From NCBI GenBank assembly GCA_021793215.1, contig JAJYTE010000003.1, positions 57,920-121,919 on the forward strand: 64,000 nt of DNA, read 5' to 3'. The position numbers and the translations under genes were made by a program. Positions 44,822 to 57,960 of this stretch are shown in pieces. Below the pieces are notes generated by a model that saw nothing but the letters and a program-made list of their open reading frames with translations, was not told where the DNA came from and ran no database searches. Source of the DNA: Bacillota bacterium (GTDB lineage: Bacteria; Bacillota; Sulfobacillia; JAJZYS01; JAJYTV01). Each line of letters starts with the position of its first letter. The first letter of the stretch is position 1.

Positions 44822-45082
44822 ATGTTAAAGTCCACGGGGATCGTCCGCAAGGTGGACGACCTTGGCCGCGTGGTGCTCCCGATCGAGTTGCGGCGCACCC
44901 TTGGCATCTCGGACAAGGACTCCTTGGAGATCTACGTCGACGGTGAGCAGGTCATCCTTAAGAAGTACGAACCCGCATGCATCTTCTGCGGCAACGCGTC
45001 CAACATGACGCACTTCCACGGCAAGAACGTCTGCGTAACGTGCGCAGCCGAACTCCACTCGATGAGCGAGCGTGCCGGCTGA
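44822..45082 (+). CDS. AbrB-family transition-state regulator with CxxC...CxxC C-terminus
   Basis: 'MLKSTGIVRKVDDLGRVVLPIELRRTLGISDKDSLEIYVDGEQVILKKYEPACIFCGNA...CVTCAAEL'. Confidence 0.92.
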   Translation: MLKSTGIVRKVDDLGRVVLPIELRRTLGISDKDSLEIYVDGEQVILKKYEPACIFCGNASNMTHFHGKNVCVTCAAELHSMSERAG

Positions 45083-45097
45083 AAGGACCAGCGCAGT

Positions 45098-45127
45098 AGA
45101 ACGCCCCGGCGCAAGCCGGGGCGTTCT
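45098..45127 (+). terminator. Rho-independent-like hairpin after abrB-like gene
   Basis: AGAACGCCCCGGC-gcaa-GCCGGGGCGTTCT. Confidence 0.75.
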
Positions 45128-45209
45128 CGCGTAGTTCGGCCGACCGGCCGGGACCCGACTATACAGACGAAGTATCATGTGAGGAGACGGGAGAGACGGG
45201 GGGACGTTC

Positions 45210-45650
45210 ATGCAAACGCTGCCGCCGCTCGCGGGGATCTCGATGAAGGGAACCCTTGGCGTCGTGCATATGCCGCGCATGTGGTCGAAGGCGCTCCTGC
45301 ACGCCAAGGGACAGCTCGCGGACGGGTACCGCCCCGGCTGATTCTTCGACCGCACGGTGATGTCCGGTCTGGGCATCGATCCCGAGAAGGCACTCGACTA
45401 CCTGATGCGGGAGCTCCCGAGCTACCAGGCGTTCGAGGAGTGGGTCCTGCGGGAGGCGGGCGGCCGCCTCGATCCCGAGGCGGTGGAGGCTGTCAACCGC
45501 ACCATCCTCACCCACGAACTCGATGCCAAGAGCATGCGCGAGTTCCAGGAGGAGCTCGGTCTGCCGCCGGATACCAACATCCGTTCCACCGCGAGGCTCG
45601 ACGAGCTCGACGACCTCGTGCAGTTCCACCGCATCCTCACGTCCGAGTAG
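45210..45650 (+). CDS. Small uncharacterised protein with in-frame TGA at codon 44 (candidate selenoprotein, or nonsense-disrupted gene)
   Basis: 'MQTLPPLAGISMKGTLGVVHMPRMWSKALLHAKGQLADGYRPG[TGA]FFDRTVMSGLGIDPEKALDYLMRELPSYQAFEEWV...' continuous on both sides; hairpin with GGTCT loop 24 nt after TGA. Confidence 0.55.
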
Positions 45651-45742: not shown

Positions 45743-46187
45743 ATGGCTCCGCGGCACCTCTTCGTGAGCGACATCCACGGGCTACGCTCCCGGGCGCGAC
45801 CGCCTGCTGCTGCTCCGGGACTACGTCGGGCAGGATGGTCGATCCGCCGAGTGCCATCGCCTGGTCCGGGGCGACTGTGCGCGGAGGATGGCGCGATCGC
45901 CCTGCAGGGGAACCACGATCGCGCCCTTGACTGGCGCCAGACGACCCCGGAGGAGTGCACGACCATCCGCTCCCCCTTCTTCGAGCGCCGCCTGCGCGCC
46001 GCGCGTCGTCTTGTTCGGACACACGCCCTGCCAGCTGCTGCACGGTTCGCCCGCGGCCTGGTACGGCCCAGGGACGGTGGGCATCGATGGCGGCGCAGGC
46101 CGCGGGCAGCAGATCAACTGCCTGATCGACGACGGGCAGACCTTTCGGATGCACGCGGTACCCGTGCCACAGCCCGGGGCACTCTAG
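45743..46187 (+). pseudogene. Metallophosphoesterase remnant with several frameshifts
   Basis: 'MAPRHLFVSDIHG' / 'GYAPGRDRLLLLRDYVG' / 'GAIALQGNHDRALDW' / 'VVLFGHTPCQLLHGSPAAWYGPGTVGIDGGAG' lie in different frames. Confidence 0.8.
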
Positions 46188-56583: not shown

Positions 56584-57960
56584 CTAGGCGAACTGCGGCA
56601 GGTACTGCCGGTGCGCCTCGATCAGTTCGTCGATGCAAGCCTGCGCTGCGCTGCGATCGCCGATCAAAGGATGCACCTGCGCCGCCTGCAGGAGCATTTC
56701 GCGCGAACCGCTGACGGCCGCCTGCGCGCAGAGGACCTCGTAATCCTTCACGCTGCGCGCGAGTCCCCGTGGACCTGGCGGCAGCGGTGCAGTCGGGAGC
56801 GGGTGGGCCCCATCACTGTCGATGCGGCAGCTGAGTTCGCCCACTTCGTCCGGTGCGAGAAAGTCCGAGGCGCCTTGGCTCGCAACGTTCAGGACGAGCT
56901 CCGTGGGCGGGCCGCCTGCAAGCGCCGACATCGCCTTCAGCGCGAGCCCCTCGTAGCCTTCCTCGCGGAAGATCGTGTCGGAGGTGATGCCGCGGTCATG
57001 GCGCGTGTCGGTCACGTCCGACATGTAGCTGTTGCGCCGCTCCGCGAGCACCGCGCGGTAGCGCGCGATCGCCTCGTCCTCGCCGCCTTGGCCCAGCGCC
57101 TCGCCGACCTCGCGGTAGATCCGGTTGTTCCAGACCTTCACCTGTTCGCCGCGCGTGCGCTGCGCCGCAATCTCGCGGGCGAGGCCGGCGCGGCGGAAGT
57201 AGTAGTAGTAAAGGTACTCGTTCGGCAGGAGACCGAGCCCCTGCAGGAGATCCGCTCCGAAAAACCCCAGGGATCGCACCTCGGCGCAGAGGCGCGCCGC
57301 GTCCGAGAGCAACGCGCCCATGCGCTCACGCCCATCCACCGCGACCGACTGCACCCACCCCAGGTGGTTGAGCCCCTGGTAGCGCAGGGAGCAGCGCTCC
57401 TCCGGAACGTCGAGGAAGCGGCAAACCTCCGTCTTGAGGCCCGAAGGCGCGTCGCACAGCCCGATCGTACGGCGGTGTCCGCCGCGGTGCAGCGCCTCGA
57501 CGATCAGCCCGGAGGGGTTCGTGAAGTTCAGAAACCAGGCGCCTGGCGCGAGCGCCTCGACGCGCTCCGCGAGGTGCAGGGCGAAGGGAATCGTGCGCAG
57601 CGCCATCGACATGCCGCCGATGCCTGTCGTCTCCTGTCCCAGGAGCCCGTGTTGCAGGGGGATGCGCTCGTCCTTGATGCGCCCGTCCGCGCCGCCGATC
57701 CGGACCGCGGAGAAGACGAAGGAGACGCCCGAAACCGTCGCGTCGAGCTCCTCGGTCGCCACGATCCGGACGGAGGCTCCGTGCCGCCTGCGCAGGGCCT
57801 CCCCGAGCCCTTGCATCAGAGAGACGCGAGAGGTGTCGACGTCGTGGAGCCGGATCTCCTCGAGGTCGATCTCCGCCGCGCGCCGCAGGAGTCCATTCAG
57901 GAGCAAGGGCACCCGAATCCCGCCACCGCCGATCACGGCCACGCGCCTTCCAGCAGACAA
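56584..57960 (-). CDS. Family 4 glycoside hydrolase (GH4)
   Basis: 'VAVIGGGGIRVPLLLNGLL', 'NFTNPSGLIVEALHR', 'GLCDAPSG', 'GLNHLGWV'. Confidence 0.9.
   Translation of the reverse strand: MSAGRRVAVIGGGGIRVPLLLNGLLRRAAEIDLEEIRLHDVDTSRVSLMQGLGEALRRRHGASVRIVATEELDATVSGVSFVFSAVRIGGADGRIKDERIPLQHGLLGQETTGIGGMSMALRTIPFALHLAERVEALAPGAWFLNFTNPSGLIVEALHRGGHRRTIGLCDAPSGLKTEVCRFLDVPEERCSLRYQGLNHLGWVQSVAVDGRERMGALLSDAARLCAEVRSLGFFGADLLQGLGLLPNEYLYYYYFRRAGLAREIAAQRTRGEQVKVWNNRIYREVGEALGQGGEDEAIARYRAVLAERRNSYMSDVTDTRHDRGITSDTIFREEGYEGLALKAMSALAGGPPTELVLNVASQGASDFLAPDEVGELSCRIDSDGAHPLPTAPLPPGPRGLARSVKDYEVLCAQAAVSGSREMLLQAAQVHPLIGDRSAAQACIDELIEAHRQYLPQFA

Follow-up and report, generated by a model that had tools for sequence, protein, structure and literature searches.

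The stretch analysed here, called the window, comprises 64,000 nucleotides of contig JAJYTE010000003.1 of a Bacillota bacterium (positions 57,920 to 121,919). On its forward strand it contains a gene of the DUF5069 family, 45210-45650, which is interrupted by a single in-frame TGA at 45339-45341 and is very probably an unlisted selenoprotein gene rather than a broken one. With high confidence we propose that a full-length DUF5069 protein is produced, in which UGA codon 44 would be decoded as selenocysteine (Sec), directed by a hairpin downstream. The evidence for this reading comes from the position of the TGA at a conserved cysteine (Cys), the Sec machinery of the genome, the form of the hairpin and the purifying selection acting on the codons that follow.

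The TGA and the conserved cysteine of DUF5069

Apart from the TGA, the frame is open over its whole length; as a preliminary description of the locus had stated, it continues without interruption on both sides, and no second stop codon or frameshift was found. ATG 45210 lines up with the starts of homologs. An ordinary open reading frame (ORF) caller gives 45357-45650 alone, as had been foreseen, and standard annotation drops the first half of the DUF5069 gene. When X was placed at the TGA, the Pfam match to PF16798 spanned it (E 4.6e-8, residues 17-135) with a score of 33.7 bits, above the gathering threshold of 27, which assigns the protein to DUF5069. The earlier proposal of a small uncharacterised family stands in so far as its function is undescribed, and is refined in that the family now has a name. 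NCBIfam held no model for the protein.

A search of 154 genomes of the class recovered orthologs from two congeners, 72% and 70% identical to the read-through protein, and four further orthologs from sister-genus genomes (46-49% identity), as well as a paralogous second group. Opposite the TGA, at residue 44, both congeners have TGC and the four sister-genus orthologs TGT or TGC; in the alignment of these six orthologs the residue sits in the block YxxG-C/U-xxDR. In 11 shorter DUF5069 proteins from a different order, Cys was found at the same place, three residues ahead of a conserved D and mostly within YPCPxDQ. The DUF5069-like protein of Leptospirillum rubarum in the PDB (3omd) reads YNCPLDQ, and HMMER paired its Cys with the Cys of a sister-genus ortholog; a PDB sequence search with the family profile gave no match, although single-sequence queries do reach 3omd. 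The preliminary description had regarded Cys or Sec opposite the TGA as support, and a non-Cys sense codon in close relatives together with a non-conserved hairpin as refutation. Near and distant homologs alike have Cys; the close relatives lack the hairpin, and of the refuting observations named in that description, all of which were checked, none was made.

In the paralogous group of the same order, the motif is YxxCGxGFD, with its Cys one column earlier; one of the source genome's own paralogs has no Cys there. The DUF5069 paralog at C70:1454-2329 of this genome has 292 residues and two domains in tandem, and another (C87:21843-22277) has a neighbourhood like that of the paralog on contig C7 of genome G347. 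The gene neighbourhoods of the orthologs differed and gave no hint at function.

Selenocysteine machinery and the hairpin downstream of the TGA

According to the preliminary description, the reading would fall if the genome lacked selA, selB or selC. All of these, as well as selD, were found in the source genome (2.74 Mb, 97.7% complete, 87 contigs), which encodes selA, selB, two selD genes and a tRNA-Sec scoring 69 bits (ARAGORN call SeC, anticodon TCA). Each selD gene contains one in-frame TGA within the motif SGU(A/G)CK. These two Sec-type copies in one genome lie at C69:9179-10102 and C79:50489-51406; one of the two is located directly 3' of selA and has a GGA-loop hairpin, the other has a GGUCC-loop element, with a NifS-like cysteine desulfurase frame after it. 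A gene for formate dehydrogenase alpha (fdhA, C32:9669-11540) carries an in-frame TGA ahead of His and a Sec insertion sequence (SECIS) with a GGUCU loop. A second fdhA-like gene (C68:33614) is without TGA. Of 14 relatives in the order, 12 have a selA scoring above the cut-off, and Sec decoding is therefore older than the TGA of the DUF5069 gene.

RNAfold and the coordinates bore out the hairpin described earlier, GATGTCC-GGTCT-GGGCATC at 45359-45377, with a 7-bp stem and a GGU/AUC(C) extension over one bulged G; its loop lies 24 nt past the TGA. The published model of bacterial SECIS (bSECIS) elements specifies a loop of 3-9 nt, a stem of 4-16 bp, G in the first two loop positions, a distance of 16-37 nt from UGA and a minimum free energy of -7.5 kcal/mol or lower (PMC13188914). 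The folding check proposed earlier placed the hairpin within every one of these limits, with a 5-nt loop that begins with GG, a stem of 7-8 bp, a distance of 24 nt from the UGA and an energy of about -10 kcal/mol. This broad model is weak evidence, as it is passed by 13% of random positions, and around 5% of synonymous recodings equal the hairpin. When the loop form was considered, a 5-base GGTCN loop closed by 6 or more base pairs was found, with SECIS spacing, at 6.6e-4 of positions, and of 1,941 TGA triplets (from about 100 kb of the genome) only that of the DUF5069 gene has such a hairpin after it. When 7 or more base pairs were required, the GGTCN loop appeared in 0.8% of synonymous recodings. 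The GGTCN test was picked after the loop had been seen; the same loop type was met independently in the genome's fdhA (CGTCGCA-GGTCT-TGCGACG) and in one selD (GGCGCA-GGTCC-TGCGCC). The GGUCU-loop form of the hairpin is not chance-like.

The comparison with Escherichia coli fdhF drawn in the preliminary description proved correct, with GGTCT following the TGA of fdhF after 18 nt. Like that element and the one in the genome's own fdhA (18 nt), the hairpin presents a GGUCU apical loop on a stem, but its loop is 24 nt and not 18 nt from the UGA, and a bulged G takes the place of the classical bulged U. No such hairpin was present in the Cys orthologs, where the best structures reached -1.7 to -4.7 kcal/mol, or none was formed, compared with -9.6 kcal/mol for the TGA gene; this is expected, because the Cys version has no need of a SECIS. 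Rfam was uninformative for the hairpin, since with SECIS_3, whose cut-off is 63, even the genome's own fdhA element scored just 26.6 bits. A genome search with SECIS_1 gave no match and missed the controls as well, and the Rfam search with the hairpin returned chance microRNA matches only.

Selection past the TGA and alternative explanations

We compared the 101 codons 3' of the TGA with those of the two congeneric orthologs. Nonsynonymous divergence (dN) was 0.25 and 0.24 (synonymous divergence, dS, 0.76 against congener G342), and 0.23 for the intact congener pair; 13 lineage-specific residues were counted in the TGA gene compared with 9 and 11 in the congeners. Past the TGA the gene is constrained as strongly as its intact orthologs are, i.e. 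this part of it is under purifying selection. Codons past a true stop would drift freely, and the constraint therefore argues for read-through.

Several observations weigh against Sec decoding. The TGA form was found in one genome only, the congeners carry Cys, and TGA/Sec homologs were absent from the 154 class genomes and from phylum samples of 300 and 399. Such homologs would lend support but are no requirement for a bacterial selenoprotein gene, and three of the deep-Sep families are likewise without further Sec-containing homologs in other species (PMC12013277). The folding energy of the hairpin is unexceptional: 64% of 52-nt stretches drawn at random from the window fold equally well. 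The remaining points concern an ordinary nonsense mutation, which would have turned the Cys codon into a stop and the gene, as with the neighbour downstream, into a young pseudogene. One base change, TGC to TGA, suffices for this, the adjoining frame directly 3' (45743-46187) looks broken, the additional DUF5069 copies of the genome could relieve constraint, and a very recent nonsense mutation, like a sequencing error, would not yet register in selection statistics. Such a mutation would, however, have to strike the single Cys codon, the target of only one among the 39 single-base changes that create a stop in the congeneric ORF, and to coincide with a Sec-decoding genome. The fdhA-like GGUCU-loop hairpin would have to stand downstream by chance, and neither another lesion nor relaxed constraint past the stop was observed. 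We consider a nonsense mutation very unlikely.

Fainter still is the prospect of a sequencing or assembly error in an ordinary Cys-containing DUF5069 gene with TGC or TGT as the real codon. The codon is known from the assembly alone, which is fragmented (87 contigs), but an error would need to hit the one Cys codon, and one wrong base there cannot make a hairpin that the Cys relatives lack. Reading of UGA by another route, either general reassignment or near-cognate read-through without selenium, would also fit a frame that is open before and after the TGA, but the Cys position and the SECIS-like hairpin are Sec-specific, and we give this explanation hardly any credence. A reassigned code was rejected: neighbours end in TGA (the AbrB-like gene at 45080-45082) and selA and selB are without in-frame TGA, and the code is therefore the standard one. 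The earlier suggestion that the UGA may encode Sec gains support from the Cys column, the sel genes, the hairpin and selection, with the full-length product still being a prediction.

Proposed role, neighbouring features and meaning for the family

In bacterial selenoproteins, UGA at a bSECIS is known to be decoded by SelB and tRNA-Sec. In the DUF5069 gene, SelB and tRNA-Sec would insert Sec at UGA codon 44, guided by the GGUCU-loop hairpin 24 nt 3' of it. The change from Cys (TGC) to Sec (TGA) would have taken place in a lineage already decoding Sec, and Sec, where a predicted helix begins, would occupy the place that the conserved Cys holds in the family. The AlphaFold2 model (mean predicted local distance difference test score 91.8) consists of helices throughout, and residue 44 lies immediately before helix 45-53. 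Foldseek ranked 3omd first (probability 1.00, E 1.3e-4, template modelling score 0.71) as the sole confident structural match. The protein and 3omd share the sequence family, the all-helical predicted fold and the conserved D three residues past Cys/Sec; the examined members differ from it in having Cys where the source gene has TGA.

The read-through product has no Cys anywhere in the chain. Because Sec would be its sole selenol or thiol, residue 44 would most likely serve as a nucleophile or ligand of the 1-Cys type, either as a redox catalyst or as a binder of a metal or an electrophile, and any resolving thiol would be supplied by another molecule. On balance we favour a catalytic or redox-active residue 44. 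With its UGA at a conserved Cys column, a bSECIS downstream, the machinery in the genome and Cys homologs, the gene resembles Sec/Cys-pair bacterial selenoproteins (PMC13188914); unlike these, it is without a CxxU, UxxC or similar motif.

Coordinates of the features at this locus are collected in Table 1. Upstream, 44822-45082 encodes a protein with an AbrB/MazE-type DNA-binding domain and a Cys-rich, zinc-finger-like C-terminal tail. The inverted repeat in the intergenic region suggests a separate transcription unit for the DUF5069 gene; it was not reported by a terminator scan, which requires a T-rich tail. The next gene downstream (45743-46187) had been called a clear pseudogene, and its frame indeed looks broken, with the calcineurin-type phosphoesterase motifs SDIHG, GNHD and FGHTP split over more than one frame. 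Pfam gave no match for the pieces of it that were tested.

Table 1 Features at the DUF5069 locus, in positions of the window
Feature	Position	Strand	Basis
Inverted repeat AACGCCCCGGC-GCAA-GCCGGGGCGTT, between the AbrB-like gene and the DUF5069 gene	45100..45125		By eye
GGGGGG, probable ribosome-binding site, 6 nt 5' of ATG 45210	45198..45203	+	Sequence, inference
Candidate selenoprotein gene, DUF5069 (PF16798), 146 residues, proposed Sec = residue 44	45210..45650	+	Frame, Pfam match, alignment
In-frame TGA, proposed Sec codon, at the conserved DUF5069 Cys column	45339..45341	+	6 orthologs, distant DUF5069, PDB 3omd
Candidate bSECIS element; core 45359-45377, GGUCU apical loop at 45366-45370, 24 nt past the TGA	45356..45382	+	RNAfold, bSECIS model

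Because DUF5069 is not listed among the 119 families and subfamilies of the 2026 inventory of prokaryotic selenoproteins (PMC13188914), it is a candidate for a new selenoprotein family, based on a single genome, and none of the papers searched mentions DUF5069. The prokaryotic selenoproteome would thereby gain one more family. The conversion from Cys to Sec looks recent, and since the congeners keep Cys and are without the hairpin, the way in which a SECIS arises within conserved coding sequence is open to direct comparison. Sec mostly stands in for a catalytic or ligand Cys, and the TGA thus points to a functionally decisive residue of DUF5069. We predict, with moderate confidence, that DUF5069 is a family of selenol/thiol-dependent enzymes in which the conserved Cys is the catalytic residue and Sec stands in for it in what would be the first selenoprotein of the family. 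If this is true, Sec would mark the active site of the family.
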